NCBI GenBank assembly: GCA_947630085.1
Contig: CANRGP010000008.1
Coordinates: forward strand, 1 to 44,563
DNA: 44,563 nt
Source of the DNA: an uncultured Lachnospiraceae bacterium
Lineage (GTDB): Bacteria; Bacillota; Clostridia; Lachnospirales; Lachnospiraceae
Reading direction: 5' to 3'
The translations under genes were made by a program, and so were the position numbers. The notes under the pieces were generated by a model that worked only from the letters and a program-made list of their open reading frames with translations, did not search any database and was not told the DNA's origin. Numbering within the stretch: the first letter of the stretch is position 1; every line of letters starts with the position of its first letter. Shown in pieces: positions 16,859-32,484 of the stretch.

Positions 16859-16885
16859 AAGAATCCTCCTCGCGCACAGGCGCAA

Positions 16886-16897: not shown

Positions 16898-16973
16898 CAT
16901 ACGCCGGCAGATTTGAGAAGTAGGGTTCGGACAAAAAGTTATCAGGAAAAATGAATAAATTTCTGATAAGGTA

Positions 16974-17002
16974 TTGCCATTTCCCGGAAACTGTGATAGA
17001 AT
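16974..17002 (+). promoter_or_regulatory. Promoter of the catabolic island
   Basis: TTGCCA (16974-16979), 17 bases, TAGAAT (16997-17002). Transcription should begin about 17009. No other good promoter was seen before the GntR gene, so this one may drive the co-directional genes up to 30552. Confidence 0.65.
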
Positions 17003-17017
17003 TCAAATCATATACAA

Positions 17018-17035
17018 TATATCATATATGATATA
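17018..17035. promoter_or_regulatory. 18-bp perfect palindrome, probable operator of the catabolic island
   Basis: TATATCATATATGATATA is a perfect palindrome placed about 9 bases after the predicted transcription start, a repressor position. The FCD-type GntR gene at 30727 at the far end of the island is the best candidate to bind it. This pairing is inferred from position. Confidence 0.65.
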
Positions 17036-17064
17036 CGAAAGGACGAACCATAGGAGGCGAGAAA

Positions 17065-18282
17065 ATGGAGAGCGGCAATTATTACAAACAGGGAGCCTGG
17101 TGGGTAAGCCCGTACAATTTTGAGGAAACAGTCAGAAATGAGCTGGATCTGGCCGAGAGAGTCCAGATCCACGACGCGACGCTGCGGGACGGAGAGCAGA
17201 CGCCGGGAGTAGTATTTTCCGTAGATGATAAAGTCAGGATCGCGGAGGGACTGAAAGAGGTAGGGATCGAGAGGATCGAGGCGGGAATGCCTGCCGTGTC
17301 CAAGAGCGACCAGCAGGCGGTAAAGGAGATCAGCAGGAGGAAGGGAAACTGCCGGATCTATACGTTTGCGAGGGCTATGAAAACGGATATCGATATGGCC
17401 TCCGACTGCGGGGCTGACGGCGTATTGATCGAGGTACCCATTGGATATCCTAAGCTGAGAGATCAGTTCCACTGGACATGGGAAAACGTCCTGGAAAAGA
17501 GCGTTGAAAGCATCCGCTATGCCAAGGAAAAGGGACTGGATGTGGTGTATTTTCCGTATGATACGACCAGAGCCAGAAGAGAAGATCTGGAAAACCTCCT
17601 GAAGGGTCTCATGAAGGATGCCAGACCGGATTCGATCGGCCTGGTGGATACCATGGGATGCGCACTGCCGCAGACGATCGGATATATGGTCAGGTGGCTG
17701 AAGAAAATGACGAACCTGCCCATTGAAGTGCATACCCACAACGATTTCGGCATGGCGCTCGCCACGGAGTTGGCCGGTATCGCGGCGGGGGCGTCCGTGG
17801 TACATACCTGCGTCAACGGGCTGGGGGAGAGGACGGGTAATGCGGCGCTGGAGGAGATGGTTCTTCTGTTCCATGTGCTCCTGGGTCTTGACAATCCCTA
17901 CAGGATCGACCGGCTCGTACCCCTGTGCAGGATGGTTGAGGAGATATCCGGCGTGCCGGCGGCGTCCAATAAACCGGTGACCGGGCTTCGGAATTATATG
18001 AGAGAATCCGGGATCGGCATCGATCAGGTGCTGGAAAATCCGCTGGCGATGTTTGCCACGGACCCGGCGTTCCTGGGGCGGAAAGCAAAGGTGGTCCTGG
18101 GAAAGAAAAGCGGACGTACCTCCATTGAATACGTCCTGAAAAAGGAGGGGATCCAGGCCGACCAGGCCCAGATCGCCGATATTCTGGAACAGGTAAAGGC
18201 ATTGTCGGAGCGGGAGAGGAGACTGATCAGCAAAGATGAATTTTCCGGGATTGTGGAGAAATGCCTCGCCGGCAGCAGATGA
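17065..18282 (+). CDS. DRE-TIM metallolyase (LeuA/homocitrate-synthase/HMG-CoA-lyase superfamily)
   Basis: A 405-residue TIM-barrel enzyme. The divalent-metal and catalytic motif HDATLRDGEQTPGV is at about residues 36-49. EVHTHNDFGMALA supplies the metal-binding His pair, and VNGLGERTGNAALEE is the usual third signature. The C-terminal part (KPVTGLRNYMRESGIG, GKKSGRTS) resembles homocitrate/isopropylmalate synthases of the NifV/AksA group. Such enzymes join or split acyl-CoA and 2-oxo acids; which reaction this one does is unclear. It has no N-terminal signal. The ATG at 17065 follows GGAGG. The 3' end overlaps the carboxyltransferase gene by 47 bases. Confidence 0.85.
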   Translation: MESGNYYKQGAWWVSPYNFEETVRNELDLAERVQIHDATLRDGEQTPGVVFSVDDKVRIAEGLKEVGIERIEAGMPAVSKSDQQAVKEISRRKGNCRIYTFARAMKTDIDMASDCGADGVLIEVPIGYPKLRDQFHWTWENVLEKSVESIRYAKEKGLDVVYFPYDTTRARREDLENLLKGLMKDARPDSIGLVDTMGCALPQTIGYMVRWLKKMTNLPIEVHTHNDFGMALATELAGIAAGASVVHTCVNGLGERTGNAALEEMVLLFHVLLGLDNPYRIDRLVPLCRMVEEISGVPAASNKPVTGLRNYMRESGIGIDQVLENPLAMFATDPAFLGRKAKVVLGKKSGRTSIEYVLKKEGIQADQAQIADILEQVKALSERERRLISKDEFSGIVEKCLAGSR

Positions 18283-19720
18283 GAGGGAGAATACAGGGAG
18301 ACTGACGGCCAGGGAACGGCTGGAACGGCTGTTTGACCCTGGAAGCTTTGTGGAAATAGGTTCACAGGTACTCAGCCGGAACCGTGAACTTATCGAAAGC
18401 CGGAGAGCGGCGGCGGGAGACGGGGCGATTACGGGATTCGGCGCGGTGAACGGGCAAACCGTATACGCATATGCCCAGGATGTTTCCGTGGCGGGAGGAT
18501 CCCTCGGGGAAATGCAGGCTGCCAAGATCGTAAAACTGATCAGGCTGGCTCTGGATGCCGGAGCGCCGGTCGTCGCGTTTATTGAATCGGGCGGGGCCCG
18601 GATCCAGGAAGGGATCGATGCTCTGGGAGGCTACGGAAATATTTTCTATTGGAACACCAGGGCCTCCGGAAAGATCCTTCAGATCTCCGCCGTCATGGGA
18701 GCGTGTGCGGGAGGCGCCGCGTACTCCCCGGCTCTCAACGATTTCATTTTTATGGTGAAGGGCAAAGGGAAGATGTTTGTCACCGGCCCGGATGTGATCC
18801 GAAGCGTGACGGGAGAGCAGATCACCGCGGAAGAGCTGGGCGGAGCAGAGACCCACGGCACGGTCAGCGGCGTGGCGCATTTTACGGAGGATACGGAGAT
18901 TTCCTGTGTCCGAAGGATCAGGGAGCTTCTGGACTATTTTTTCTGCAGGCGGAAGACTTCGGAGCGGCCAGATGTCCCTGCTTCCGGTGACGGGCGGCTT
19001 CGGACCTGTGTCCCCGACAATATCCGGCGGCCTTACGATATGTATGAAATCATTCGCTGCCTGACGGACGGCGGGACATTTCTGGATTATATGAAAGGCT
19101 ACGCGCCAAATATGATCACCTGCCTGGCCCGGGTGAACGGGATGACGGTGGGGATTGTGGCCAATCAGCCGATGACGCTTGCCGGATGTATTGATATCAA
19201 CGGGGCGGACAAGGCAGCCAGATTTGTGAGGACCTGCGATGCCTACCGGATCCCGGTAGTGTCGCTGGTGGATGTGCCCGGATTTTTGCCGGGGGTGGGA
19301 CAGGAGCACGGCGGCATTATCCGGCACGGAGCGAAAATGTTGTATGCGTATGCGGAATCAACGGTACCTAAAGTTACCATAATTATAAGAAAGGCTTATG
19401 GCGGGGCATACCTGGCGATGGGATGCCGGGAGCTCGGAGCGGATTATGTATTTGCCTGGCCTCAGGCGGAGATCGCGGTGATGGGAGCCGAGGGTGCGGC
19501 GGATATCATTTTCCGGCATATGGAGCCGGAAGAGAAGGAAGAAAAAAAGAGAGCGTATGTGGAGGAATTTTCCAACCCTTACGCGGCGGCAAAAAGAGGA
19601 ATCGTGGACGAGGTGATCGATCCCGGCGATACCCGTCGCATCCTGATCCGGACGCTGGAGGCGCTTGCGCCGAGTACGAAAGAGGCGGAAAGAAAGAGAC
19701 ACGGAAACATCCCGCTGTAG
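18236..19720 (+). CDS. Acyl-CoA carboxyltransferase-like protein (PCC-beta / decarboxylase-alpha family)
   Basis: A 494-residue protein of the crotonase-fold carboxyltransferase family. The N-terminal half has LTARERLERLFDPGSFVEIG, SGGARIQEGIDALGGYG and GACAGGAAYSPAL. The C-terminal half has DVPGFLPGVGQEHGGIIRHGAK, RKAYGGAYLAMG and AEIAVMGAEGAADI. Family members move CO2 between biotin and acyl-CoA. No biotin carrier, biotin carboxylase or membrane decarboxylase subunit is encoded nearby, so the partner is missing or the role is different. The N-terminus is about 20 residues shorter than usual. The ATG at 18236 lies inside the preceding gene; the overlap suggests translational coupling. Confidence 0.85.
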   Translation: MNFPGLWRNASPAADERENTGRLTARERLERLFDPGSFVEIGSQVLSRNRELIESRRAAAGDGAITGFGAVNGQTVYAYAQDVSVAGGSLGEMQAAKIVKLIRLALDAGAPVVAFIESGGARIQEGIDALGGYGNIFYWNTRASGKILQISAVMGACAGGAAYSPALNDFIFMVKGKGKMFVTGPDVIRSVTGEQITAEELGGAETHGTVSGVAHFTEDTEISCVRRIRELLDYFFCRRKTSERPDVPASGDGRLRTCVPDNIRRPYDMYEIIRCLTDGGTFLDYMKGYAPNMITCLARVNGMTVGIVANQPMTLAGCIDINGADKAARFVRTCDAYRIPVVSLVDVPGFLPGVGQEHGGIIRHGAKMLYAYAESTVPKVTIIIRKAYGGAYLAMGCRELGADYVFAWPQAEIAVMGAEGAADIIFRHMEPEEKEEKKRAYVEEFSNPYAAAKRGIVDEVIDPGDTRRILIRTLEALAPSTKEAERKRHGNIPL

Positions 19721-19742
19721 CGGAAGAGAAAGGAGGGAGAGA

Positions 19743-20711
19743 ATGAAGAGAGGAGTGAGCCTTTACAGCTTTCAGGAGGAGTATTTCCGGAAAGAATTAT
19801 CGCTGGAGGGCTGCGTTGCCGCCGCGGCGGATATGGGCGCTCCCGGTATTGAGATCGTATCGGAGCAGATGGTGTTCGGCTTCCCCCGGGTGGACGACGG
19901 CTTTTACAGCCGGTGGAAGCAGTGGATGGAAAAATATCATACCGTCGCGCTGGCCCACGACATGAACCTGGATACCAAGAGGTTTCCGGGACGGCTTCTG
20001 ACTCAGAAGGAGATGGTGGACTGGACGGTTTTGAATCTGAGGTACGCCGCCAGGATGGGCTTTAAAAATGTAAGAGCCAATCAGGTGACGCCGCCGGAGA
20101 TCTGGAAGGATATTCTTCCCGTTGCGGAAGAACTGGGACTGAATGTGGGAGTCGAACTTCATCCGCCCTTTACATTCCGGCACCCCAGGATCCTGCAGCA
20201 CCTTGAGGAAATGGAACGGCTCGGATCGCCGCGCCTGGGCCTGGTGGTAGACACCGGGATCTTTGAGAAGCGCTATTCGCGGGTGAAAAAGGAATATTAT
20301 ATCCGACACGGGGCCTCACAGAGATGGGCGGATTATATTGAGGCCGCCTACAATGCCGGAGAGTCGGGCCCGGATCTGTGGCAGAAGGTGGAAGAGCTGG
20401 GCGGAGAGCCGAAGGATGTCCAGATGGCCAGGGAGACAGGCCGTATGGTCTACACACCGCCCGGAGAAATGAAGGAGCACGCCCGGAGGATTCTGTGGCT
20501 CCACGCCAAGTTTTATGAAATGACGGAGGACGGCGAGGAATACAGCATCCCGTTTGATGAGATCGTGGAAGCGCTGAATGAATGCGGATTTGACGGGTAC
20601 CTGTGCAGCGAATACGAGGGGAACCGCTATATTCAGGATCTGGGCCGGGTGGACAGCATTACGCAGGTCAAAAGGCAGCAGGCTATGCTGAAACGTCTGC
20701 TGGGGCAGTAA
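19743..20711 (+). CDS. Probable C-glycoside deglycosidase alpha subunit (AP-endonuclease-type TIM barrel)
   Basis: A 322-residue metal-dependent TIM barrel of the sugar phosphate isomerase/epimerase-like family. Four ligands expected for a Mn-type site are visible: Glu138 (GVELHPP), Asp170 (LVVDTG), His254 (LHAKFYEM) and Glu290 (SEYEGNRY). Length and the motifs around His254 and Glu290 (HAKFYEM, EYSIPFDEIV, GYLCSEYEGNR) resemble the alpha subunit of C-glycoside deglycosidases such as DfgA. These cleave the C-C bond between a 3-oxo sugar and an aromatic aglycone. The next gene encodes the matching beta subunit, which strengthens the call. The ATG at 19743 follows AGGAGG; the frame is open further upstream without support. 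Confidence 0.75.
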   Translation: MKRGVSLYSFQEEYFRKELSLEGCVAAAADMGAPGIEIVSEQMVFGFPRVDDGFYSRWKQWMEKYHTVALAHDMNLDTKRFPGRLLTQKEMVDWTVLNLRYAARMGFKNVRANQVTPPEIWKDILPVAEELGLNVGVELHPPFTFRHPRILQHLEEMERLGSPRLGLVVDTGIFEKRYSRVKKEYYIRHGASQRWADYIEAAYNAGESGPDLWQKVEELGGEPKDVQMARETGRMVYTPPGEMKEHARRILWLHAKFYEMTEDGEEYSIPFDEIVEALNECGFDGYLCSEYEGNRYIQDLGRVDSITQVKRQQAMLKRLLGQ

Positions 20712-20723
20712 GGAGGTGGCGGA

Positions 20724-21116
20724 ATGTTTGATCGCTATATGCTGGTAGAAGACTCTCTGACAAGGGGAACGGAAAACGGGAGGGAATTTATCCAGGTGGG
20801 GATCCGCTATCCCCATCACTGCGGGATCTGGGTATCCATCATCGAGAAGCTGGAGCTGTGGATCGATGGAGAGCCGGTTCCCGGGGAGGATATGACCCTG
20901 GTGCTCCACGGAAACGAGTATCCGGTCACCCGGCTGGGAGAGGAGGAGGAGGACCGCTGGAACTTCGGGGAGATCGGATGGCTCCGGATCTGGACCGAGA
21001 AGCTCCCGGAGGCAGGGGCGCATGAGCTGACGCTGGAGATCGGCCTGCGCGTTTCGTTTCTTGCCTGGCTGCTGACGGGAAGCGATACCAAACAAATGCT
21101 GTTGAAATCACAATAA
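20724..21116 (+). CDS. Probable C-glycoside deglycosidase beta subunit (DUF6379/CGDB-like)
   Basis: A 130-residue protein: MFDRYMLVEDSL, ENGREFIQVGIRYP, ELWIDGEPVPGEDMTLVLHG, then RWNFGEIGWLRIW and a hydrophobic end HELTLEIGLRVSFL. This layout (ENG-K/R, an xVDGExVP turn, RWxFGE, HELxLEIxLRISF) is what I recall for the small beta-sandwich subunit of C-glycoside deglycosidase. That subunit forms a complex with the TIM-barrel subunit and closes its active site. The gene starts 12 bases after the TIM-barrel gene behind AGGAGG, as expected for partners made in equal amounts. No signal peptide. The match is by pattern memory, not by search. Confidence 0.72.
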   Translation: MFDRYMLVEDSLTRGTENGREFIQVGIRYPHHCGIWVSIIEKLELWIDGEPVPGEDMTLVLHGNEYPVTRLGEEEEDRWNFGEIGWLRIWTEKLPEAGAHELTLEIGLRVSFLAWLLTGSDTKQMLLKSQ

Positions 21117-21132
21117 AAGAAAGGTGGTAAGT

Positions 21133-22221
21133 ATGGAAAAACTGAAGATCGGTATGATCGGCTGCGGAGGGATCGCGAATCAGAAGCATTTCCCGGCGCT
21201 GAGCCGGATCGGAGATGTCGAGATGACAGCGTTCTGCGACGTAAAGGAGGAGAAGGCGCGGGAAGCGGCGGCCAAATATGGCGCGCCGGGTGCGGCCGTT
21301 TACGTTTCCTACAGGGAAATGCTGGAAAAGGAAGAACTGGATGTGGTCCATGTGATGACACCGAACAGGGCGCACTGCGAGATCACGGTCGCCGCCCTGG
21401 AGGCGGGCTGCCATGTAATGTGCGAGAAGCCCATGGCGGCTACAAGCGCCGACGCGAAAAAGATGCTGGATGCCGCCAAAAGGACCGGGAAAAAGCTGAC
21501 CATCGGTTACCAGAACCGGTTCCGCCCCGACAGCATATATCTGAAGAAAGCCTGCGCGGACGGACAACTGGGGGAGATCTATTTTGCCAAGGCCCGCAAC
21601 ATCAGACGCAGAGGCGTGCCTACCTGGGGAGTTTTTCTGGACGCCGAAGCGCAGGGAGGCGGCCCGCTGATCGATATCGGGACACACGCCCTTGACCTGA
21701 CGCTTTGGATGATGGACAACTATCAGGTGCGCAGCGTCACCGGAATCTCCTACCGGAAGCTGGCAGACCAGGTGCCGGGCAGCGGCAACGGCTTCGGCGA
21801 CTGGGACCCCAACATCTTTACGGTGGAGGATTCCGCCTTTGGATTTGTAACCATGCAGAACGGCGCTACGGTACTTGTGGAGAGCAGCTGGGCACTGAAC
21901 ACGCTGAACTGTACGCCTCTCGGCCCCAGGACGGAGCTGTGCGGCACACTGGGAGGGGCGGATATGAACGACGGCCTTCGGTTCAACTTTGTTGAATACG
22001 GAAAGCTGGCTACCAAGGCCCCGGCTCTCACCGGAGTGGGCGTCGATTTCTTTGACGCCAAACAGGAGCTGCAGCCTCACGAGCTGGAAGCGGAGGCATG
22101 GATCCGGGCGATCCGGGAAGACACGGATCCCGTCACCAAACCGGAGGAGGCGTTTGTGGTCACTCAGATCCTGGAGGCAATCTATGAATCCGCAAGAACC
22201 GGAAAGACAATTTACTTCTAG
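21133..22221 (+). CDS. Gfo/Idh/MocA family dehydrogenase (1)
   Basis: A 362-residue NAD(P)-dependent enzyme. The Rossmann start GMIGCGGIANQKH lies at residues 7-19. CEKPMA (Glu98-Lys99-Pro100) is the catalytic-Lys motif. GGGPLIDIGTHALDLTLWMM holds Asp181 and His185 of the active site. In C-glycoside and 3-keto-glycoside pathways such an enzyme (DgpA type) oxidises the sugar at C3 before cleavage. Its place right after the putative deglycosidase subunits fits that role, which is inference. The ATG at 21133 follows AAAGGTGG. An in-frame GTG at 21124 lies inside that ribosome binding site and is rejected. Confidence 0.9.
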   Translation: MEKLKIGMIGCGGIANQKHFPALSRIGDVEMTAFCDVKEEKAREAAAKYGAPGAAVYVSYREMLEKEELDVVHVMTPNRAHCEITVAALEAGCHVMCEKPMAATSADAKKMLDAAKRTGKKLTIGYQNRFRPDSIYLKKACADGQLGEIYFAKARNIRRRGVPTWGVFLDAEAQGGGPLIDIGTHALDLTLWMMDNYQVRSVTGISYRKLADQVPGSGNGFGDWDPNIFTVEDSAFGFVTMQNGATVLVESSWALNTLNCTPLGPRTELCGTLGGADMNDGLRFNFVEYGKLATKAPALTGVGVDFFDAKQELQPHELEAEAWIRAIREDTDPVTKPEEAFVVTQILEAIYESARTGKTIYF

Positions 22222-22271
22222 GCCATTGCCGAAAGCAGTGGACGCGAAGGAAAGACAAAGGAGGTGAGAGT

Positions 22272-23324
22272 GTGAAGAAAAGCGTAACGGCGGCAGTCAT
22301 AGGATATGGCGGAATGGGGAGCCGGCACGTCAAACAGATGAGCCAGGTTCCCGGGATCCGGATGAAGGGAGCTTATGATATCCTCCCTGAGAAGCAGAAG
22401 CAGATCCGGGAAGACGGATTTGAGGCATATCCGGATCTGGAATCGCTGCTGGCGGATAAAGAGGTAGAGCTGGTGGTGATCGCGACTCCCAATCAGGAGC
22501 ACATGATCCAGTCCGTTCGCGCGCTGCAGGCAGGGAAACACGTAATCTGTGAAAAGCCCGTAACGGTGAGCGTCCAGAACCTGGAGCAGATCATCCGGGT
22601 AAAGGAAAGCACGGGGAAGCAGTTTTTTGTCCATCAGAACCGGCGGTGGGATGAAGATTATGCAGCGGTAAAGAAGTGCCTGGATTCGGGAAAGCTTGGC
22701 CGGGTGTACCATATCGAGTCAAGGGTTATGGGGGCGAGAGGCGTTCCCAATGACTGGAGAAGGATCAGCGCGTGCGGAGGAGGAATGCTTCTGGACTGGG
22801 GCGTCCATCTGATCGATCAGATGCTGTGCCTGGTTCCGGGAAAGCTGGTTCGGCTGGCCTGCCGGCTGTCCTATCAGCAGGGCCTGGAAGTAGACGACGG
22901 ATTTACGATCTTCCTGGAATTTGACAGCGGGGTCACGGCGGTCCTGCAGGCGGCCACCTGGAATTTCGAGACACTGCCCAGATGGTATGTCAACGGGACC
23001 GAAGGGACGCTAAGGATCGACCGGTGGCATGATAACGGAACAGTGACCTGCTTAAAGAAAGCATTGGAGAAGGACGCGGTTCCGGTGGTGACGGCGGCAG
23101 GCATTACCAAGACCATGGCGCCCAGGGATCCGGATTCCGTCCGGCAGGAAAAACTGATGCTGGAGGAAGGAACTCCGTTCGCCTTCTACGAAAATGTGCG
23201 CAGAGTGCTTACGGAGGGAGACAGCCCGGCGGTCACGGTGCCGCAGGTGCTGCGCTGCATGAAGGTCATCGAGGCCGCAATGCGCTCCGCACAGCTGGAA
23301 AGCCCGGTAACGGTTGAACCGTAA
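22272..23324 (+). CDS. Gfo/Idh/MocA family dehydrogenase (2)
   Basis: A 350-residue enzyme from a GTG at 22272 behind AGGAGG. It shows the Rossmann motif AAVIGYGGMGSRH, the CEKPVT motif (Glu94-Lys95-Pro96) and GGGMLLDWGVHLIDQ (Asp175, His179). It is clearly a paralog of the preceding gene but not a recent copy, because most positions outside the motifs differ. Two such dehydrogenases side by side may oxidise the glycoside and reduce the freed 3-oxo sugar, recycling NAD(H); this is inference. The protein is cytoplasmic. Confidence 0.9.
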   Translation: MKKSVTAAVIGYGGMGSRHVKQMSQVPGIRMKGAYDILPEKQKQIREDGFEAYPDLESLLADKEVELVVIATPNQEHMIQSVRALQAGKHVICEKPVTVSVQNLEQIIRVKESTGKQFFVHQNRRWDEDYAAVKKCLDSGKLGRVYHIESRVMGARGVPNDWRRISACGGGMLLDWGVHLIDQMLCLVPGKLVRLACRLSYQQGLEVDDGFTIFLEFDSGVTAVLQAATWNFETLPRWYVNGTEGTLRIDRWHDNGTVTCLKKALEKDAVPVVTAAGITKTMAPRDPDSVRQEKLMLEEGTPFAFYENVRRVLTEGDSPAVTVPQVLRCMKVIEAAMRSAQLESPVTVEP

Positions 23325-23349
23325 AAAATATGCACAAGGGGGAACTGAA

Positions 23350-24156
23350 ATGTTCAAAGGAAAGAAGGTAATTGACTTAAGCCTCCCGCTGGCGGAAAAC
23401 GCGGGGTATGAGGTCAGACCGCTCTCGATCAACCGGAAGACCCACGAGGAGGGGCTTAAGGATCACATGGAAAAATTCCATGTAAAACCCGGAGAGCTGC
23501 CTTCCGGCGGACAGGGATATGCCGTGGAGATCATGAGCGTGGCAACTCATGCCGGGACTCACATGGACGCTCCGTGGCACTACGGCCCGGTCTGTGAAGG
23601 AAGACCCTCTCCGACCATCGACCAGATGCCTCTGGAATACTGCATGGGCGACGGTGTTTGCCTGGATTTCCGGAAATTTGGAGACGGATATGTGATCACG
23701 AAGGCGGACATCGAGGCGGAGCTTGCGAGGATCGGCTATGAAATTAAGCCGCTGGATATTGTGTTTATCATGACGGGATGCGATAAGAAGATCCAGCCCG
23801 GCTATGAGGAGGCCAATAAGAGGTTTGACAGAGAATACTTTAAGCAGCCCGGACTGGGAAGAGAGGCGGTGCTTTATCTGACCGGGCTCGGCGTGAAGGT
23901 CATCGGGATTGATGCCTGGGGAATGGACACGTCTTTCCCGGCCATGCAGAGGCAAAGGGAGGAAACCGGAGACACTTCCGGGGTATGGCAGGCTCACTAT
24001 GCCGGGATCGAGAAGGAGTATTACCATATCGAAAAGCTGGTGAATCTCGATCAGCTTCCGCCATTTGGATTTGAGGTGATCTGCGCTCCCATCAAGATTG
24101 AGCGGGCAAGCGCGGGATGGGTGAGGGTACTGGCATTTGTGGACGAAAAGCAGTAA
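23350..24156 (+). CDS. Cyclase family protein (kynurenine-formamidase-like hydrolase)
   Basis: A 268-residue metal-dependent hydrolase. The signature HAGTHMDAPWH gives His67, His71, Asp73 and His77, the usual metal and catalytic residues. VIGIDAWGMD and the C-terminal GWVRVLAFV complete the fold. The family opens cyclic amides, lactones and 1,3-diones (isatin hydrolase, formamidase, polyketide-type cyclases). In this island it might open a lactone or a ring of the released aglycone. The ATG at 23350 has AAGGGGG upstream; the frame extends 12 codons further but overlaps nothing useful. Confidence 0.88.
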   Translation: MFKGKKVIDLSLPLAENAGYEVRPLSINRKTHEEGLKDHMEKFHVKPGELPSGGQGYAVEIMSVATHAGTHMDAPWHYGPVCEGRPSPTIDQMPLEYCMGDGVCLDFRKFGDGYVITKADIEAELARIGYEIKPLDIVFIMTGCDKKIQPGYEEANKRFDREYFKQPGLGREAVLYLTGLGVKVIGIDAWGMDTSFPAMQRQREETGDTSGVWQAHYAGIEKEYYHIEKLVNLDQLPPFGFEVICAPIKIERASAGWVRVLAFVDEKQ

Positions 24157-24210
24157 CGGAACATTCATGCGCCGCAGACGCGGCATACTATCACAAAAAG
24201 GAGAAGAGAA

Positions 24211-25590
24211 ATGTTAAAGAGAAAATGGATCAGCATTATTGTGGCAATGTCCATGGTACTTACGGCAGCAGGGTGCGGCAGTACGGGTAATACAAATAAT
24301 ACGACAGGGGAGACACAGGCGCCTGCCGCGCAGGCGGAGACGCAGAAACAGGAAACAGAGGCCCAGAGTCCGGAAACCGAGACAGAGGCGGAGGCAAAGG
24401 AGCCGGTTACGCTGAAGCTGATGGCGATGTCAACCGGTGACGGAAATCCGGAATATGACGCGCTGATCGCGGCGTTTGAGGAAAAATATCCCTGGATCAC
24501 CATCGAGCCGGAGTACCTGGGAATCGGCGACGCCTATAACAACGCCCTGCTGACCAGACTGAGAGGAAGCGACGCTCCGGATCTGTTCCATGTCGCCAGC
24601 GGAACAGGATCCGTATACTCCGGTATCCTGCTTGCGGAGGCCGGATACATCATGGATCTGAGCGGAATGCCCTGGGCGGACGGACTGGTTCCCGAGGCGA
24701 ACCATGATTCCTGGTATTACGGCGATATGCTTACGGCAGTTCCGCTGCAGGTAGCTCCCATCATTGTGGAATATAATGTAAAAGCATTTGAGGATCTGGG
24801 GATCAAGGTTCCCACCACAATGGAGGAATTCTTTGAGGCGGGAAGAAAGGCCAAAGAGCAGGGACAGAATTTCCTGGTCCTGTCCGGCGCACATACGGGA
24901 CATTCCGTTCATATGCTGACTTCCATCGCCATGTCCATGGTATACTCTGAGAATCCCAACTGGGATGCGGACCGGTATGCGGGAAAGGTCAGCTTTGCAG
25001 ACAGCGAAGGCTGGAAGAAGACGGTGGATTACTTTATGCAGATGTGCGATGAGGGATTCTTTGTTCCCGGCTCCGAAGGAATGGATACCAATTCCGGGCA
25101 TATCGCCCTTGCCAACGGCGACGGAATCGCCCGTGTGTGCCCGGCCGGAAACATCCACATCGTGGAAGCCATCAATGAAGATCTGGAGCTTTCCTCCTTT
25201 GTAATGCCCGGCGAGACGGCGGACAAGACGGCCGTATCCGGCATGATGGTGGACGGTATCGCCGCCTGGTCGGGAACTAAGTACCCGGAGGAAGTGAAGC
25301 TGTTCATGGATTTCATGGTTGTGGACGGTGGTCTCAATACGTATACGAATATCACGGGGAACATTGCCATCGGCGATCTGCTTACCGGCACGGTCCTGAA
25401 CGAAAAGCTGGCCTGCGTGTCTCCGCTGATCGAAGAAAAGAAGCTCTTCTCCCATCCGCAGGAGGCATGGCCGGGAACTGCCTATGACACTCTCGGCGCG
25501 GGCGTGCAGTCCCTGATGCTGGGTCTTGTCACACCGGACGAGTTCCTGAAACAGCTGGACGAGGCGTGGGACGAAGGAATGGCAAACTGA
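24211..25590 (+). CDS. ABC transporter solute-binding lipoprotein (family 1)
   Basis: A 459-residue lipoprotein: signal peptide with LTAAGC (Cys22), an ET/QA-rich linker to about residue 62, then the family 1 fold (TLKLMAMSTGDGNPEYDALIAAFEEKYPWITIEPEYL, LRGSDAPDLFHVASGTGSV). It differs strongly from the maltodextrin-binding protein at 7363, so its ligand is probably different. The neighbours suggest a glycoside. It lies 54 bases after the cyclase gene with AAGGAGA in front of the ATG. A stem-loop at 25631 follows, as after the other binding-protein gene. Confidence 0.9.
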   Translation: MLKRKWISIIVAMSMVLTAAGCGSTGNTNNTTGETQAPAAQAETQKQETEAQSPETETEAEAKEPVTLKLMAMSTGDGNPEYDALIAAFEEKYPWITIEPEYLGIGDAYNNALLTRLRGSDAPDLFHVASGTGSVYSGILLAEAGYIMDLSGMPWADGLVPEANHDSWYYGDMLTAVPLQVAPIIVEYNVKAFEDLGIKVPTTMEEFFEAGRKAKEQGQNFLVLSGAHTGHSVHMLTSIAMSMVYSENPNWDADRYAGKVSFADSEGWKKTVDYFMQMCDEGFFVPGSEGMDTNSGHIALANGDGIARVCPAGNIHIVEAINEDLELSSFVMPGETADKTAVSGMMVDGIAAWSGTKYPEEVKLFMDFMVVDGGLNTYTNITGNIAIGDLLTGTVLNEKLACVSPLIEEKKLFSHPQEAWPGTAYDTLGAGVQSLMLGLVTPDEFLKQLDEAWDEGMAN

Positions 25591-25630
25591 TCCCGGGATC
25601 GGAAAGAGCAATGTGAGGATCAAAGCATGA

Positions 25631-25664
25631 CGGCTGCCCCGGACAGGGACTGTTCGGGCAGCCG
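25631..25664 (+). terminator. Stem-loop between binding-protein and permease genes
   Basis: CGGCTGCCC / GGGCAGCCG, continued inwards by GGACAG / CTGTTC around one bulged C, form a stem of about 15 bp with a 3-base loop. Only CCTTTC follows, so it is more likely a partial terminator or mRNA stabiliser. It mirrors the stem-loop at 8770. Confidence 0.65.
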
Positions 25665-25725
25665 GACCTTTCATCCGTAAGCGAAAACAGGCAGCCGGAA
25701 CGGTCTGCCGGAAAAGGAGGAACCG

Positions 25726-26628
25726 GTGACATTGCAAAGAAAAAAGACCAAAAAGTACAATTACATCAAGGCTCCCTGGTTTTGGATACTTCCGGCAGTG
25801 GCTCTGGTATTTGTGATGCGTTATGCCACGGTAGCCGCAGGGGGATGGTATGCTTTTACAGACTGGAACGGAATCAGCTTTAAGGCGGACTTTGTAGGAC
25901 TTAAAAATTTCCAGACACTGTTTCAGAAGAAGGAAAATTACAGGAGCCTGTTTACCACGATCCGCTATACCCTGTGCCTCATGATAGGCTCCAATATCCT
26001 GGGAGTGGTGTTTGCGTCGCTGCTGAACCGCGGCGTCAGGATGAAAAACTTCCTCAGGGTGCTCATCTTTATTCCGGTTATCATGCTTCCCATGTCGGTT
26101 TCCTACACATGGAAGTTCATCTATCAGTACGACGGCCCTCTGAATACATTATTGAACAGCGTGCATCTGTCAAACCTGGCAACGATCTGGCTTGCCCACC
26201 CCAAGCTGTCTTTCTGGGCGATCATGGTGGTGGTGATCTGGCGCTGGGCAGGAAGATGTATGCTGATCTACCTGGCGGGCCTGCAGAACATATCCGAAGA
26301 CGTGGAGGACGCCGCGATCATTGACGGGGCCTCGGCGTGGCAGAGGTTTACCAAAATCTCCCTGCCGCTTCTGGCGCCGTCCATGACCATCACGTTCACG
26401 CTGACACTGACGGCGGGACTTAATATTTTTGATGAGATCATGGCCCTTACCAACGGCGGTCCCAACAAGCTGACGGAATCTCTGGCCACCGTGATCTATA
26501 AGGAAACCTATGTGCTCGGAAACTTCGGCTACGGCGCGGCACTGTCGCTGGTTCTGACGATCCTTGTGGTCGTTGTGGCCCTGGCACAGCTCCTTGCCCT
26601 TCGCAAGAGAGAGGAGGAGATGCAGTGA
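25726..26628 (+). CDS. ABC transporter permease (sugar type, MalF-like)
   Basis: A 300-residue membrane protein with about six segments, the first at FWILPAVALVFVMRY. The EAA loop reads EDVEDAAIIDGASAWQRFTKISLP. The GTG at 25726 follows AGGAGG at a short spacing of 5 bases. It overlaps the next permease gene by 4 bases. It forms the channel with the gene at 26625 and imports the ligand of the lipoprotein at 24211. No ATPase gene is present in the island. Confidence 0.9.
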   Translation: MTLQRKKTKKYNYIKAPWFWILPAVALVFVMRYATVAAGGWYAFTDWNGISFKADFVGLKNFQTLFQKKENYRSLFTTIRYTLCLMIGSNILGVVFASLLNRGVRMKNFLRVLIFIPVIMLPMSVSYTWKFIYQYDGPLNTLLNSVHLSNLATIWLAHPKLSFWAIMVVVIWRWAGRCMLIYLAGLQNISEDVEDAAIIDGASAWQRFTKISLPLLAPSMTITFTLTLTAGLNIFDEIMALTNGGPNKLTESLATVIYKETYVLGNFGYGAALSLVLTILVVVVALAQLLALRKREEEMQ

Positions 26629-27464
26629 TGAAACAGGTCAGGCAAAAAAGAAAAAGGAAGACCGCTGTAAAAACAGCGCTGATGTTTATCGTTGCCATTC
26701 TCTGGGTATTGCCTTTTATTTATCCGATCCTGATCTCTGTAAAGCCCGGGAACGAAGTTTTCTCAGATCTTCTTGGTCTGCCGTCCAGGCTTGACTTCTC
26801 GAACTATGTGGTGGCATGGACCAAGGGAAATATGGGAAGGGCGCTTCTGAATACGGCAATTATAACCGTGTCTACGGTTCTGATCCTTGTAATATTCGGC
26901 TCTCTGTGCGCGTACACGATCGCCAGGAGGCGGGGATGGATATGGAATGCCCTGTACCTGTTTTTTGTAGTCGGGACCATTCTCCCCTACAAGCTGGGTC
27001 TGCTTCCTACGTATGTAGCTTTCAATAAAGCCGGCCTTACAGGGACCTTTCCCGGGATCATCCTTCTGCAGGCTGGGATCCAGATGCCGATGACGGTATT
27101 TCTGTTTACCGGATTTATCCGGGCCACGCCTACCATGTATGAGGAGGCCGCCCAGATCGACGGGGCTTCGCCCCTGCAGACGTTTGCCCATGTGATATTC
27201 CCTCTTCTGGCGCCTGTGACGGCTACGGTGGTGATCCAGAATGGAATCTCCGTATGGAACGATTTCTTCCTTTCTCTCATATTCCTGGGGGGATCCAAGA
27301 GGCTTCCGCTGTCGGTGACGCTGTATTCGTATATCGGGGACAACGCGACTCAGTGGAATCTGGTGTTCGCCTCGGTGATTCTTTCCCTGATTCCGGTCGT
27401 GATCCTCTTCCTTCTGCTGCAGGAGAATATGATGAAAGGATTTGCGGGAGGCATAAAGGGCTGA
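26625..27464 (+). CDS. ABC transporter permease (sugar type, MalG-like)
   Basis: A 279-residue membrane protein: basic N-terminus, six predicted segments, EAA loop MYEEAAQIDGASPLQTFAHVIFP, and the characteristic C-terminal NMMKGFAGGIKG. As in the maltodextrin operon, it begins with GTG-ATG (26625/26628) overlapping the TGA of the previous permease, so the two are probably translationally coupled. Its partners are the permease at 25726 and the lipoprotein at 24211. Confidence 0.9.
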   Translation: MMKQVRQKRKRKTAVKTALMFIVAILWVLPFIYPILISVKPGNEVFSDLLGLPSRLDFSNYVVAWTKGNMGRALLNTAIITVSTVLILVIFGSLCAYTIARRRGWIWNALYLFFVVGTILPYKLGLLPTYVAFNKAGLTGTFPGIILLQAGIQMPMTVFLFTGFIRATPTMYEEAAQIDGASPLQTFAHVIFPLLAPVTATVVIQNGISVWNDFFLSLIFLGGSKRLPLSVTLYSYIGDNATQWNLVFASVILSLIPVVILFLLLQENMMKGFAGGIKG

Positions 27465-27510
27465 TAAGGGCATGATGCAGGATGCTTAAAGACAGCTAAG
27501 GAGGGTAAAT

Positions 27511-29208
27511 ATGGAATGTTTAAAGACAGTAAATGAGGACAATATGAGGATCTGCTATGATATCCGTATCCCGATGCGGGACGGGGCCTATATCTGCGCC
27601 GATGCCTACTGCCCGGAGGAGGAGGGGGCGTATCCCGTGATCATGACGTTCGGGCCCTATGGAAAGCAGCAGCCTTTCCAGTACCAGACTCCGGCCCCCT
27701 GGCAGAGGCTGTGCCGTGAGACGGAGGAGGTGTTTGAGGACAGCTCCTGCCGGCATCTGACCTGGGAAACGGTAGATCCGGAGAAATGGGTACCGGCCGG
27801 ATACATCGTGGTGAGGGCGGATTCAAGGGGAAGCGGAAGGACGCCCGGAGTCATCGACCCGTTCTCCTGGCAGGAGGCGGAAGACTATTACGACTGCATC
27901 GAATGGATCGGGCAGCAGCCCTGGTGCAGCGGCCGGGTGGGGCTTCTGGGGATCTCCTATTTTGCCATCACCCAGTGGAATGTGGCGTCTTTAAATCCTC
28001 CTCATCTGGCCGCTATGTGCCCGTGGGAGGGATCCTCCGACATCTATCGGGAACAGCTGCGCAAAGGAGGGATCCTTTCGGGGATCGGGAGTATCGACGG
28101 GAACTGGTGGAATGTGATGATCCTGCCGGGACAGTACGGGACAGGCGTCCGTTCCATTAAAAACCCGGTGAGCGGGCTCTATGCCGGCGGAGACGAGACG
28201 CTTCCGGAGGACGAGCTTGCCCGGAATCGGATCAATAACAATGAGACGGCCAGAAACCACGAGCTGCTTGACGACTGGTATAAAAACAGAACACCAGTTC
28301 TGGAGAATATCAAAGTGCCGCTCCTGTCGTGCGGAAACTGGGGCGGGCACAATCTCCATCTGAGGGGTAATATTGAAGGCTTTATGAGGGCTTCCTCCGA
28401 AGAAAAATGGCTGGAGATCCACGGAGGAACCCATTTCACCGATTTTTACAAAAAAGAAGGATATCGGATGCAGCGCAGATTCTTTGACCATTACCTGAAG
28501 GGCGAGGATAACGGCTGGGAAAAAGAGCCGCGGGTGAAGCTCCACATCCGCCATCCGTATGAGCGGTTTTCGGTGCGGACGGAGGAATCCTGGCCGCCTG
28601 CAAACGCCGAGTGGAAAAAATTTTATCTGCACCCGCAGGCCGGTGCGATTTCCCGGGAGCCCGCAGGAAAGGAGGGCAAAATCTCTTTTCGGGCCCAGTC
28701 CGAGAGCGTTACGTTTGTAACGGACGCGTTCCTGAAGGATACGGAGTTTACGGGTCCCGCGGCTGTCAAGCTGTGGATATCCTCTTCGCGGAGGGACGCC
28801 AATCTGGTGGCGGTTCTGCGGCTTCTGGATCCGGAGGGGAAGGAAGTGACTTTCCAGGGGGCCAGCGCTCCCAGCGTGCCCGTGGCGATGGGCTGGTTAA
28901 GAGCGTCGCACCGAAAGCTGGATCCGGACAGATCTCTGCCCTACAGACCGTGGCACTCTCACGATGAGCTGCAGTATCTGACGCCGGGCGAGATATATGA
29001 GCTGGATATTGAGCTGTGGCCCACATCCATCGTTGTGCCGGAGGGATACCGCCTGGCTTTGACCATCCAGGCCCATGACTGGGAGAAAAGCACTTCTTTC
29101 CAGAAGGACAAATGGGACCAGAGGCCGGAGCTTTACGGCGGGATCACCACCATCTGCTCCGGTGAGGAGCATCCGTCGTATCTTCTGCTTCCGCAGATCG
29201 GGGAGTAG
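27511..29208 (+). CDS. CocE/NonD family hydrolase (X-Pro dipeptidyl-peptidase-like)
   Basis: A 565-residue alpha/beta-hydrolase with a C-terminal jelly-roll domain, the layout of cocaine esterase and X-Pro peptidase relatives. VRADSRGSG lies near residue 101. The nucleophile elbow GISYFA places Ser149, and GGTHFTDFY probably supplies the His. The elbow has Ala where Gly is more usual (GxSYxG). The C-terminal part (TGPAAVKLWISSS, GWLRASHRKLDP) is typical. It has no signal peptide, so it should work on something imported, probably splitting an ester or amide. The ATG at 27511 follows AAGGAGG. Confidence 0.88.
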   Translation: MECLKTVNEDNMRICYDIRIPMRDGAYICADAYCPEEEGAYPVIMTFGPYGKQQPFQYQTPAPWQRLCRETEEVFEDSSCRHLTWETVDPEKWVPAGYIVVRADSRGSGRTPGVIDPFSWQEAEDYYDCIEWIGQQPWCSGRVGLLGISYFAITQWNVASLNPPHLAAMCPWEGSSDIYREQLRKGGILSGIGSIDGNWWNVMILPGQYGTGVRSIKNPVSGLYAGGDETLPEDELARNRINNNETARNHELLDDWYKNRTPVLENIKVPLLSCGNWGGHNLHLRGNIEGFMRASSEEKWLEIHGGTHFTDFYKKEGYRMQRRFFDHYLKGEDNGWEKEPRVKLHIRHPYERFSVRTEESWPPANAEWKKFYLHPQAGAISREPAGKEGKISFRAQSESVTFVTDAFLKDTEFTGPAAVKLWISSSRRDANLVAVLRLLDPEGKEVTFQGASAPSVPVAMGWLRASHRKLDPDRSLPYRPWHSHDELQYLTPGEIYELDIELWPTSIVVPEGYRLALTIQAHDWEKSTSFQKDKWDQRPELYGGITTICSGEEHPSYLLLPQIGE

Positions 29209-29211
29209 ACA

Positions 29212-30552
29212 TTGAAGCTGGATGAGCGATACCGGCTGGCTGCGGCTATCGCCTGCCCCGCCATGATAGAATCGGGGTTTACCTCGGTGGTGGGGATCAT
29301 CGATTCTCTGATGGTCAGTTCGCTTGGGACATATGCGGTGGCGGCGGTGGGACTGTGCAACCAGCCGAAGCTGGCGGCATTTTCCTTCTTCTTTGCACTG
29401 AATATTGCCGTTTCCGCGCTGACAGCCAGGAGAAAGGGCGAGGGACAGACGGATGCCATGCATCAGATTGTAGTTTGCGCCCTGGTCATAAGCGCTGTTT
29501 TTGGCATCGTGATCGGACTGGCAGGATTCATCGGCGCCGACCGTATCATCCGCCTGTGCGGCTCCGACAGGGATACCCACAGGGATGCGGTCGCCTACTT
29601 TCGGATCATTATGGCCGGAACGGCGGTCCAGGCGCTGTCGTTTACCATCAATGCGGCGCTGCGGGGGACGGGGTGCACGGCCGCGGTTATGAGGATCAAT
29701 GTGGCTTCTCAGTGCCTGAACCTGGTGGGCAATTATCTTCTAATCGGAGGGCATTTCGGGTTTCCGGCGATGGGAACGGCGGGAGCGGCGGCTGCCACAG
29801 TGCTTTCCTATCTGGCGGCGCTGATCCTGGGAATTGCCTGTATTCTGGAAAAGAAATATGATATCCGCATCGATTACCTGATAAAAGCCGCGCGTTCCCG
29901 GTGCCCGGGCGCCCTGAGAAAGATCTGGAGACTCCAGCTTCCGTCTCTGGCGGAGCAGATCCTGATGCGCATCGGGTTCCTTGCCACAGCGGTGATGGCC
30001 GCAAGACTGGGAACGGAGGCGTTTGCGGCAAACCAGGCCGGGATGAATATTTTTAACCTGACATATGCTTTCGGAGAAGGAATGCAGGTCGCGGCAGTAT
30101 CACTGGTAGGGCGAAGCCTGGGAGAGAAAAACGCGGAGGCAGCCGGGTCGTATCTGTCCGTCCTCCTGCGGGGAGGGCTCCTGATCTCCGCGGTACTGTC
30201 CGTCCTGTATCTGACCGGGGCTGCTTTCTATATGGGGCTTTATTTTGACGGGGAAGAGATCCTTGAAACAGGAAAGAGGATCATGTATGTCAGCGCGGTG
30301 ATCGTGTATATCCAGATGCTCCAGCAGACGGTGACCGGAGGACTGAAGGGGGCGGGAGACATGGTGTATATCACCTGTTCCACCATTGTCAGCGTCACCC
30401 TGATCCGTCCGTTAAGTACATATCTTCTCTGCTATACGGCGGGTATGGGAGTCCTGGGGTGCTGGTTCGGGATCCTCCTGGATCAAAGCTGCCGCCTGGC
30501 GTTTGTGACGTGGCGCTACAGAAAAAACAAATGGCAGGCGATAGGGATCTGA
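29212..30552 (+). CDS. MATE family efflux transporter
   Basis: A 446-residue membrane protein with about 12 segments in two homologous halves. YRLAAAIACPAMIESGFTSVVGIIDSLMVSSLG and the second-half LAEQILMRIGFLATAVMAARLG are typical MATE openings. The start is a TTG at 29212, only 3 bases after the hydrolase stop, with GGGGAG as ribosome binding site inside the end of that gene. Being last in the co-directional run, it may export an aglycone or waste product of the pathway (inference). Na+ or H+ coupling cannot be told. Confidence 0.9.
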   Translation: MKLDERYRLAAAIACPAMIESGFTSVVGIIDSLMVSSLGTYAVAAVGLCNQPKLAAFSFFFALNIAVSALTARRKGEGQTDAMHQIVVCALVISAVFGIVIGLAGFIGADRIIRLCGSDRDTHRDAVAYFRIIMAGTAVQALSFTINAALRGTGCTAAVMRINVASQCLNLVGNYLLIGGHFGFPAMGTAGAAAATVLSYLAALILGIACILEKKYDIRIDYLIKAARSRCPGALRKIWRLQLPSLAEQILMRIGFLATAVMAARLGTEAFAANQAGMNIFNLTYAFGEGMQVAAVSLVGRSLGEKNAEAAGSYLSVLLRGGLLISAVLSVLYLTGAAFYMGLYFDGEEILETGKRIMYVSAVIVYIQMLQQTVTGGLKGAGDMVYITCSTIVSVTLIRPLSTYLLCYTAGMGVLGCWFGILLDQSCRLAFVTWRYRKNKWQAIGI

Positions 30553-30581
30553 TCCGCCGGATCGGATAAGCCCAAACTTTA

Positions 30582-30610
30582 TTGTCAAGTTTAGGGGGAT
30601 TTGTTATAAT
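30582..30610 (+). promoter_or_regulatory. Promoter of the GntR gene
   Basis: TTGTCA (30582-30587), a 17-base spacer and a perfect TATAAT (30605-30610). An imperfect inverted repeat, CCCAAACTT / AAGTTTAGGG (30571-30597), spans the -35 and may be an autoregulatory operator. Confidence 0.8.
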
Positions 30611-30726
30611 GTATTGGAAAATGGCAGCAGTTCAGCGGCTCATCTTATTCAGCGGCCCCGGCCGCGGGAAAGCACCGGATGTCCTCCCCGCCGAACTGCG
30701 CAGAAACCGAGGGAAGTGACAAGACG

Positions 30727-31368
30727 ATGCAGTACAAGAGCAAAGTAGACATTATTTATGAAAAACTGATGCAGGAGATCATTGAAGGTACATACCGAAA
30801 CGGAGACCGCCTGGTCATCAGCAAGATCGCGAATCAGAACGAGATCAGCGAGATCCCGGTGAGAGAGGCTATCCGGCGTCTGGAGAGCGAAGGCTATGTG
30901 ACGGTGAAGGCAAACCAGGGAGCAGTGGTGAATATCCTTGGAAAAGATGACGTCACGGAGATCTTTCAGATCAAGGGGATCCTGGAGGGGTATGCCGCCC
31001 GTCTTGCCATTGATTATCTGACTGCTGAGGATTACGCAAAATTACGGAACATCAATCACGAACTGAAGATTGCGCAGGATAATGATTCCAACAAGGACAG
31101 CGCGGAATTAAATATGAGCTTTCATCTTTATATGTATGAAAGGATCCCGCAGAAGCAGCTGTATAATATGATCATGGAGCTGTGGAAGAAGTGGAGCATC
31201 ACCAAGGCCGTGTTCTCTCTGGTTCCTGCCAGAGGAGAGGAATCGGTTCGGGAGCACGAGGAGATCCTTGTCTATATGGAGAACAATCAGCCGGATCTGG
31301 TGGAGAAAGCGGTAAGAGAGCACAAGTTTAAGGCCGGATATGCGCTGGCGCGGAGGATCGGATCGTGA
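30727..31368 (+). CDS. GntR family regulator, FCD (FadR-like) subgroup
   Basis: A 213-residue protein with an N-terminal winged helix (DIIYEKLMQEIIEGTYRNGDRL, then EIPVREAIRRLESEGYVTVKAN) and a helical FCD domain. The first FCD helix is IFQIKGILEGYAARLAI; the metal-binding His residues of the subgroup may be in MSFHLYMYE and VREHEEIL. Such regulators sense organic acids or sugar acids. It has its own promoter at 30582 and closes the island, so it probably controls the palindrome at 17018. The ATG at 30727 is used; 16 upstream in-frame codons have no ribosome binding site. Confidence 0.9.
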   Translation: MQYKSKVDIIYEKLMQEIIEGTYRNGDRLVISKIANQNEISEIPVREAIRRLESEGYVTVKANQGAVVNILGKDDVTEIFQIKGILEGYAARLAIDYLTAEDYAKLRNINHELKIAQDNDSNKDSAELNMSFHLYMYERIPQKQLYNMIMELWKKWSITKAVFSLVPARGEESVREHEEILVYMENNQPDLVEKAVREHKFKAGYALARRIGS

Positions 31369-31395
31369 TTGTCTCAAGAGAAGGAGGCAATATTT

Positions 31396-32307
31396 ATGGA
31401 ACTTGGGCTTTTAAGCGCTATACTGGCGGATATGGATTTTGATCAGGTCATAGAATTTGCGGAGAAGACAGGTTTTTCCTGCGTGGAGGCGGCCTGCTGG
31501 CCCGCCGGAAAAGCGGCGCGCAGATACGCCGGCGTTTCCCACATTGATGTGGACGGGCTGACAGACGAAAGGATAGCCCATATTCAGTCGATGTGTGAAA
31601 AACACCATGTGCGGATCAGCTCCCTGGCCTACTATCCCAATCCGCTTGATCCCGACCCCGAAGCGGCCGCTCTGGCTGCGGAGCACATCAAGAAGCTGAT
31701 CGTGGCGAGCCGGAGGCTGAATGTGGGAATGGTTACTACCTTCATTGGACGCAATCAGTATGAGACGGTGGAGAAAAACCTGGAGCGGGTCGCCCAGGTA
31801 TGGCCGCCGATCCTCAAACTGGCGGAGGAACAGAATGTGCGTGTCGCCATTGAAAACTGTCCCATGCTTTTCGACGGCGGTCAGTGGCCGGGAGGCCAGA
31901 ACCTGATGACCTCGCCCAAATTGTGGAGAGAGATCTTCCGAATCCTGCCAAGCAGGATGCTCGGACTGAATTTTGACCCCTCGCATTTTGTATGGCAGAT
32001 GATGGATGAGGTCAGTCCTCTGTATGAATTTCGGGACAGGCTGTTCCACGTCCATATCAAGGATATTAAGCTGTATCCCGACAAGCTGCGCCAGGTGGGC
32101 ATTATGGCCTACCCGCTGGAGTATATGTCCCCCAAGATCCCAGGACTTGGAGACATCAACTGGGGGAGATTTATCAGCGCCCTGACGGATATCGGCTATT
32201 CCGGACCGGTAGTTGTCGAGATCGAGGACAAGTCGTTCGAGGGCTCCGAGGAGGAGGTTTTTTCCGCGATCCGGCAGAGCTTCCGTTATATTCGTCAGTA
32301 CGTGTAA
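31396..32307 (+). CDS. Sugar phosphate isomerase/epimerase-like TIM barrel
   Basis: A 303-residue AP-endonuclease-2-type TIM barrel. Expected metal ligands are Glu in VAIENCP, Asp in NFDPSHFVW, His in FHVHIKDIK and Glu in VVVEIEDKS. It is distinct from the deglycosidase-like protein at 19743. Relatives beside Gfo/Idh enzymes act on keto sugars, including as epimerases, isomerases or hydratases of 3-keto-glycal intermediates, so a role in returning the released keto sugar to a hexose is plausible but unproven. The ATG at 31396 follows AGGAGG, 27 bases after the GntR gene; the two are co-transcribed. Confidence 0.85.
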   Translation: MELGLLSAILADMDFDQVIEFAEKTGFSCVEAACWPAGKAARRYAGVSHIDVDGLTDERIAHIQSMCEKHHVRISSLAYYPNPLDPDPEAAALAAEHIKKLIVASRRLNVGMVTTFIGRNQYETVEKNLERVAQVWPPILKLAEEQNVRVAIENCPMLFDGGQWPGGQNLMTSPKLWREIFRILPSRMLGLNFDPSHFVWQMMDEVSPLYEFRDRLFHVHIKDIKLYPDKLRQVGIMAYPLEYMSPKIPGLGDINWGRFISALTDIGYSGPVVVEIEDKSFEGSEEEVFSAIRQSFRYIRQYV

Positions 32308-32476: not shown

Positions 32477-32484
32477 AATGTACC

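Follow-up and report, generated by a model that had tools for sequence, protein, structure and literature searches.

Foods and medicines contain C-glycosides, whose cleavage governs aglycone release (passages of PMC8563793). In passages of PMC12724307, homologues of the gut system DgpABC are almost confined to Bacillota. PurABC, whose oxidase uses oxygen, is reported there mainly from other phyla (Actinomycetota, Pseudomonadota, Bacteroidota, and Deinococcota). Here we analyze a stretch of 44,563 nucleotides (the window), contig C8 of a 2.06-Mb metagenome-assembled genome (MAG; 79% complete) of an uncultured Lachnospiraceae bacterium. It contains a real, acquired island of the C-glycoside type with a known core. 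The pairing of C-glycoside deglycosidase (CGD) with dehydrogenase is unusual, a regulator and an operator probably belong together, and the accessory genes are unexplained.

As in DgpABC of strain PUE and DfgABCDE of E. cellulosolvens, loci that we know from passages and from recall, a DgpA-type dehydrogenase stands beside an alpha/beta CGD in the island. The island CGD alpha is 28-33% identical to the DgpC and DfgA chains, and an importer, hydrolases, a LeuA-like enzyme, a carboxyltransferase, and a MATE pump are present in addition. At the C-glucosyl deglycosidase locus of Deinococcus aerius, a proposed FAD oxidase reportedly performs the first step. The island differs from that system (PDB entries 8qvc, 8qvd, and 8umc) in having a DgpA-type dehydrogenase as first enzyme. 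The alpha/beta CGD family is also common to CarABC/PurABC of soil actinobacteria, but there the first enzyme is an FAD- and O2-dependent oxidase (passages of PMC12724307) instead of DgpA; identity of the island CGD alpha to the solved soil chains (28% for AgCarB2, 31% for Microbacterium testaceum CGD) is no higher than to the gut ones. The GlycDH-AtOGE-AtHYD-Gfo operon of Agrobacterium resembles the island in its two Gfo/Idh and two sugar-isomerase-like proteins (passages of PMC10628242) but differs in that elimination is carried out by AtOGE, which lacks sequence similarity to CGD.

Results

The island pairs a CGD of an environmental-type clade with a gut-type DgpA dehydrogenase

A first-pass annotation made from the letters alone had read the genes at 19743 and 20724 as CGD alpha and beta subunits (Table 1), and Pfam and solved-structure matches confirmed this identity. 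A TIM-barrel alpha gene and a DUF6379/CGDB beta gene are adjacent, and the beta subunit scored 61.8 bits against PF19906, "C-glycoside deglycosidase beta subunit" (cut-off, 27.6). When better matches to non-CGD families were looked for, the CGD families were the ones that fitted. Matched by equal spacing, the metal residues E138, D170, H254, K256, and E290 are conserved, as are H140 and E292; the reference residues of AgCGD2 are E147/D179/H269/K271/E305 and H149/E307 (passages of PMC8563793). The H254 position is Q in some actinobacterial CGD alpha rows. Sequence or model shows the kinship of CGD and of DgpA, the active-site residues, and the insertion described below.

A quick tree was built from 133 CGD alpha rows. 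It placed the window in a supported (97) set of 70; the remaining rows come from Pseudomonadota (36), Actinomycetota (25), Chloroflexota (5), Bacteroidota (2), and Acidobacteriota (1), and none of them is from the window's family or from Bacillota. No similar CGD alpha was detected at 1e-45 in the 298 other genomes of the phylum sampled; at the same threshold 5 of 194 relatives passed (34-38% identity), all outside the window's tree set. The first Gfo/Idh protein (Gfo1) is nearer to solved DgpA than to other Gfo/Idh structures (next match, 3.4e-35), which supports the DgpA-type 3-dehydrogenase identity. The previously proposed logic of import, 3-oxidation, and elimination is supported as well. 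We compared 20 regions around CGD genes from 13 related genomes, which cover 24 of the 32 non-own places and in some cases end at contig ends; Gfo1 relatives (50-63%) were found in 9 of them. The DgpA and CGD rows of Schaedlerella (L101), Lachnospiraceae, grouped in trees with rows of the window's family, which would place the source in Lachnospiraceae and, with less confidence, in a gut habitat.

The soil PurABC/CarABC type has a GMC-family oxidase beside CGD. Pfam matched no GMC model in the 13 island genes scanned. Among 73 CGD loci, a GMC oxidase relative was near CGD in 21 (one checked by Pfam), a Gfo1 relative of at least 300 bits in 3, and both together in none. Since two of these three loci, L034 and L055, combine a CGD of the window's set with a 51-52% DgpA, the pairing of environmental-clade CGD with DgpA is rare here but not unique.

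An O-glycoside or some other glycoside is rather unlikely as the natural substrate, with the CGD serving as a general 3-keto-glycoside eliminase, although PuCGE cleaves 3-keto O- and C-glucosides (passages of PMC10628242) and D3dgpA oxidizes both O- and C-glycosides (passages of PMC11239390). The closest solved relatives of the island CGD are structures titled C-glucosyl deglycosidase, and the Agrobacterium system is described as handling O-glycosides without an alpha/beta complex (PMC10628242, same passages).

Two side observations concern the related CGD loci. One genome (G092; L126, L130, L131, L137, and L138) has 12 CGD-alpha matching stretches, two of them probably one gene, a large set for C-glycoside use. 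In L129, L133, and L140, an FMN-reductase-like gene (Pfam on L133) and large AraC-type proteins instead of GntR were seen, and in L129 one AraC-type protein is fused to a glycosyl hydrolase 39 domain.

Gfo2 and the second TIM barrel probably belong to the pathway

Passages of PMC10628242 describe a four-step glycoside pathway (oxidation, elimination, hydration, reduction) that is run by two Gfo/Idh and two sugar-isomerase-like proteins, and both pairs are present in the island. Relatives of the TIM-barrel protein at 31396 (56-62%) occur in 5 of the 20 related CGD regions, and a profile of this protein and four relatives from other CGD loci matched the solved AtHYD hydratase at 2.4e-42. Because the pathway pairs fit, relatives recur at CGD loci, and the profile matches AtHYD, the second Gfo/Idh protein (Gfo2) and the second TIM barrel are probably not the extras that they had been taken for. 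The TIM-barrel protein is probably a 2-hydroxy-3-keto-glucal hydratase, and Gfo2 is probably a 3-keto-glucose reductase or else a second glycoside oxidase.

The island is inserted at a variable site

MurC regions were compared for 12 of the 23 genus relatives that had a match. MurC (66-72%) was found in 12/12 and the exporters (76-84%) in 9/12; in these nine, the exporter pair (window 13266-16900; one checked as ABC exporter) occurs together with MurC. The site is empty in L190 and L192, where the gene order (exporter, QueT, MurC) is the same as in the window but exporter start and QueT start are 246 and 257 bases apart, compared to about 15.6 kb in the window. L188 has one gene (216 amino acids [aa]), presumably HAD-like by its appearance, at the site, and L189 has about 5 kb of other genes. 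Five of the 12 regions are arranged otherwise, and three lack the exporters in the stretch. Judged from this synteny, the island was acquired as a discrete insertion at a variable locus, since two relatives are empty there and others hold different genes.

An assembly or binning artefact that joined foreign DNA to the contig is highly improbable. The source genome is indeed an incomplete MAG, and the CGD alpha groups with no other row of its family or of Bacillota, but the genus-typical MurC and exporters flank the island on both sides on one contig, the GC content of the island genes (0.50-0.59) is close to that of the flanks (0.54 and 0.56), and Gfo1 and the TIM barrel have 50-63% relatives in the same family or order. 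A chimeric assembly was likewise held unlikely on synteny, composition, and kinship of neighbors.

The exporter-QueT-MurC junction (L183-L194 versus window 13266-34617) is a variable genus site whose contents differ by species. The next gene after the island encodes the QueT-family transporter (32485-32988; PF06177), in a frame different from that of the 32478-33071 open reading frame (ORF). Its leader is conserved in genus relatives, and by its appearance it may be of preQ1 type, which Rfam did not confirm; no Rfam match was obtained in the window at gathering thresholds.

Gene layout and coordinates

The 14 island genes, all on the + strand, occupy 17065-32307 (about 15 kb). In line with the first-pass annotation, they are codirectional with short gaps or overlaps, and its gene families agree with Pfam for the 13 genes scanned; the second permease was identified by homology. 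The start given there, 16974, is the first base of the front promoter-like site. The LeuA-like and carboxyltransferase genes overlap by 47 bases, and 12 bases separate CGD alpha and beta. The largest gaps are those between the solute-binding protein (SBP) and permease genes (135 bases) and between the MATE and GntR genes (126 or 174 bases, depending on the GntR start). No ABC ATPase gene is among the fourteen. Upstream, at 7363-13134, a second SBP, two permease-like genes, a LacI-type regulator, and a 4-alpha-glucanotransferase were observed, with no ATPase gene seen alongside.

Table 1. Features of the island and its putative control sites
Feature	Position	Strand	Evidence or remark
Promoter-like site, front of island	16974..17002	+	TTGCCA-17-TAGAAT, TG before second hexamer
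AT-rich palindrome array, putative GntR operator	17007..17036	.	Just past -10
LeuA/homocitrate-synthase-like enzyme, 405 aa	17065..18282	+	HMGL-like 1e-63, HCS_D2 5e-10 (Pfam)
Acyl-CoA carboxyltransferase, MmdA/PccB-like, 494 aa	18236..19720	+	Carboxyl_trans 1.3e-166
CGD alpha subunit (metal-dependent C-C eliminase), 322 aa	19743..20711	+	
CGD beta subunit, 130 aa	20724..21116	+	PF19906 6.6e-17; 8qvc_B 8.9e-21
Gfo1, DgpA-type Gfo/Idh/MocA glycoside 3-dehydrogenase	21133..22221	+	9m3d DgpA1 9.5e-129; 7xr9 DgpA 6.3e-122
Gfo2, second Gfo/Idh/MocA oxidoreductase	22272..23324	+	3e18 3.1e-92; P581a DgpA2 1.8e-48
Cyclase-family metal hydrolase	23350..24156	+	PF04199; isatin hydrolase 2.3e-11
ABC importer SBP	24211..25590	+	SBP_bac_1 5.3e-24
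ABC importer permease 1	25726..26628	+	BPD_transp_1 5.4e-18
ABC importer permease 2	26625..27464	+	39-43% to permeases near CGD, nine actinobacterial loci
CocE/NonD-family hydrolase (esterase or amidase)	27511..29208	+	TIGR00976 5.9e-81, above cut-off; 3ib3 1.9e-96
MATE-family exporter	29212..30552	+	MatE 3.5e-52
Second promoter-like site, before GntR	30582..30610	+	TTGTCA-17-TATAAT
GntR/FCD regulator	30727..31368 (alternative start 30679)	+	FCD 1e-20, GntR 1.3e-15
TIM-barrel protein, probable 2-hydroxy-3-keto-glucal hydratase	31396..32307	+	

A palindrome suggests a link between the rear GntR and the front of the island

The palindrome array begins five bases past the front -10, and positions 17018-17035 form a perfect 18-mer. 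No second site was found in the source genome, even when 2 mismatches were allowed. Among the 194 loci compared, the palindrome occurs in the window and at one place of G643 (L116), a genome of another family, where it is followed by GntR, an NMT1_3 receptor, DUF6282, a DctM permease, and a LeuA-like gene. This GntR is the best match to the island GntR (47%) in the 298 other phylum genomes, and the LeuA-like protein is one of two tied best matches (431.0 bits versus 430.2 for G588, which is without such a palindrome). G643 was selected by its LeuA-like gene, before its regulator or palindrome was examined. Since palindrome, best GntR match, and top LeuA-like match coincide in L116, the comparison suggests control of the front promoter by the rear GntR, a functional link between regulator and LeuA-like gene, and a single regulon. 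The front promoter-like match is weak on its own, because the region shows no excess of such sites over shuffled sequence (8 found, 10.1 expected).

The accessory genes are rarely shared with other CGD loci

Five island genes are accessory: those for the LeuA-like enzyme, the carboxyltransferase, the cyclase, the CocE hydrolase, and the MATE pump. The LeuA-like enzyme retains the RDGEQ, HTHND (HxHND), and GERTGN (GERxGN) motifs, and it passed none of the LeuA/NifV/homocitrate synthase cut-offs of NCBIfam in the 25 of 28 models listed (best, TIGR02090 at 355 bits; cut-off, 485). Close relatives were absent from 298 other family genomes at 1e-100 and from 255 other order genomes at 1e-85; at 1e-95, 7 of the 298 other genomes of the phylum had relatives (best, 51%). 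Their eight loci in seven genomes contain no CGD, and the neighbors include a DctM permease with an NMT1_3 receptor, a TctC receptor, CoA transferases, and a CoA ligase. A CoA transferase, CoA ligase, or ATP-grasp_5 gene is near the LeuA-like relative in four of the eight loci, adjoining it in L118 and L119 and about 2-3 kb away in L117 and L120; no such gene was seen in the other four, which were inspected by eye only.

The carboxyltransferase scored 655 bits against the NCBIfam model of the methylmalonyl-CoA decarboxylase alpha subunit MmdA (cut-off, 999). Relatives of 51-58% were among the matches listed for 159 of the 298 other phylum genomes at 1e-130. The source genome has a second carboxyltransferase (35-37%) on contig C38 with biotin-carrier and PYC_OADA genes nearby, and we can only guess that this locus may supply a biotin carrier for the island enzyme.

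The cyclase-type hydrolase contains HAGTHMDAPWH and reached 34 bits against the kynurenine formamidase model TIGR03035 (cut-off, 223). Relatives (41-46%) lie within 10 kb of CGD in 8 of the 73 loci, all from Pseudomonadota and spread over four families; these eight genomes have 1-3 cyclase copies each at 1e-20. In L075, the relative adjoins an FAA_hydrolase gene. This recurrence and neighborhood hint at work on the aglycone. By blastp at 1e-15, island-like SBPs were near CGD in 10 of the 73 loci, all actinobacterial, and relatives of CocE in 2, MATE in 1 (26%), LeuA-like in 1 (35%), and GntR or carboxyltransferase in none.

None of the 20 related CGD regions had a LeuA-like, carboxyltransferase, cyclase, or CocE gene (tblastn, 1e-10), and the expected co-occurrence of all fourteen genes did not hold. 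A conserved 14-gene cluster was rejected, as the full set was seen nowhere else in the regions and loci compared. The proposed processing of an aglycone or acyl group is unproven: the cyclase lends it some support, from another phylum, and the remaining genes none.

It is possible, if not what we favor, that two modules lie side by side without a shared substrate, one for an organic acid (LeuA-like enzyme, carboxyltransferase, GntR and operator) and one for a glycoside (CGD, Gfo1, Gfo2, TIM barrel, importer). The LeuA-like relatives sit without CGD among genes such as those named above, L116 is a locus of this kind with the GntR relative at its head, and the LeuA-like and carboxyltransferase genes are missing from all 20 related CGD regions. 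However, the modules would be interleaved, with the operator and LeuA-like gene in front, GntR at the rear, and the glycoside genes between them; moreover, the carboxyltransferase stop and the CGD alpha start are 22 bases apart, and no promoter-like site of at least 10/12 lies between 17002 and 30582.

Discussion

We consider it likely that the locus is an acquired catabolic island for glycosides, C-glycosides among them. It probably enables an anaerobic bacterium to import plant compounds with a C-C-linked sugar, to remove that sugar, and to utilize it. In the proposed pathway, the ABC importer would take up the glycoside with an ATPase supplied from elsewhere, and Gfo1 would oxidize glucose C3 with NAD. 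The two-subunit, metal-dependent CGD would then eliminate the aglycone by breaking the C-C bond and leave 2-hydroxy-3-keto-glucal, which the TIM-barrel hydratase would convert to 3-keto-glucose. Reduction to glucose by Gfo2, or by Gfo1 itself, would close a redox-neutral cycle without oxygen. The MATE pump would expel the aglycone, and the rear GntR would repress the front promoter via the palindrome at 17007-17036. We infer the hydratase, the reductase, the regulator-operator pairing, and the import and export of the island's substrate. For the cyclase-type hydrolase, CocE hydrolase, LeuA-like enzyme, and carboxyltransferase, our guess is that they process what is left of the substrate (a ring, an ester, or an acyl group). 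We agree with the first-pass annotation that the substrate cannot be read from the sequence.

Several points weigh against this reading. CGDs can also act on 3-keto O-glucosides (passages of PMC10628242), and therefore C-glycosides need not be the natural substrate. For the hydratase, the profile that matched AtHYD was built with four relatives of 27-33%, the 31396 protein alone did not match AtHYD at 1e-8 in a single-sequence search, its predicted model is only fair (pLDDT, 78.2), and its fold match is tied with unrelated TIM barrels. The full 14-gene set turned up nowhere else. The operator evidence comes from two genomes only, and the palindrome (up to 3 mismatches) is absent from the weaker GntR relatives L169 and L170 and from the seven LeuA-like loci L117-L123. 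Finally, + strand promoter-like sites of 9/12 are located at 25732, 26401, and 29834 and one of 11/12 at 30582 before GntR, and six + strand terminator-like sites lie within genes from 21822 to 30221, a class of site above shuffle expectation (24 versus 13.3). With these internal sites, the island may be more than one transcript.

A more specific version, which we regard as doubtful, is an anaerobic pathway for acylated or decorated C-glycosides: CocE would remove an ester, the cyclase would hydrolyze or open part of the aglycone, fermentation of the released acid via CoA chemistry would fall to the LeuA-like enzyme and carboxyltransferase, and GntR would sense an intermediate of this branch. 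We found no paper joining C-glycoside deglycosylation with 2-isopropylmalate synthase or carboxyltransferase, and we make no wider claim of unpublished status. If this version were true, one regulator would govern both C-C deglycosylation and the use of the non-sugar part, and environmental-clade CGDs would work with the oxygen-free DgpA system.

The island stands between the two camps: its CGD comes from a clade whose other members in our data are all from environmental phyla, and the neighbor of this CGD is a DgpA. Module swapping can be tested on this island, which also supplies candidate genes for the fate of the remaining molecule.

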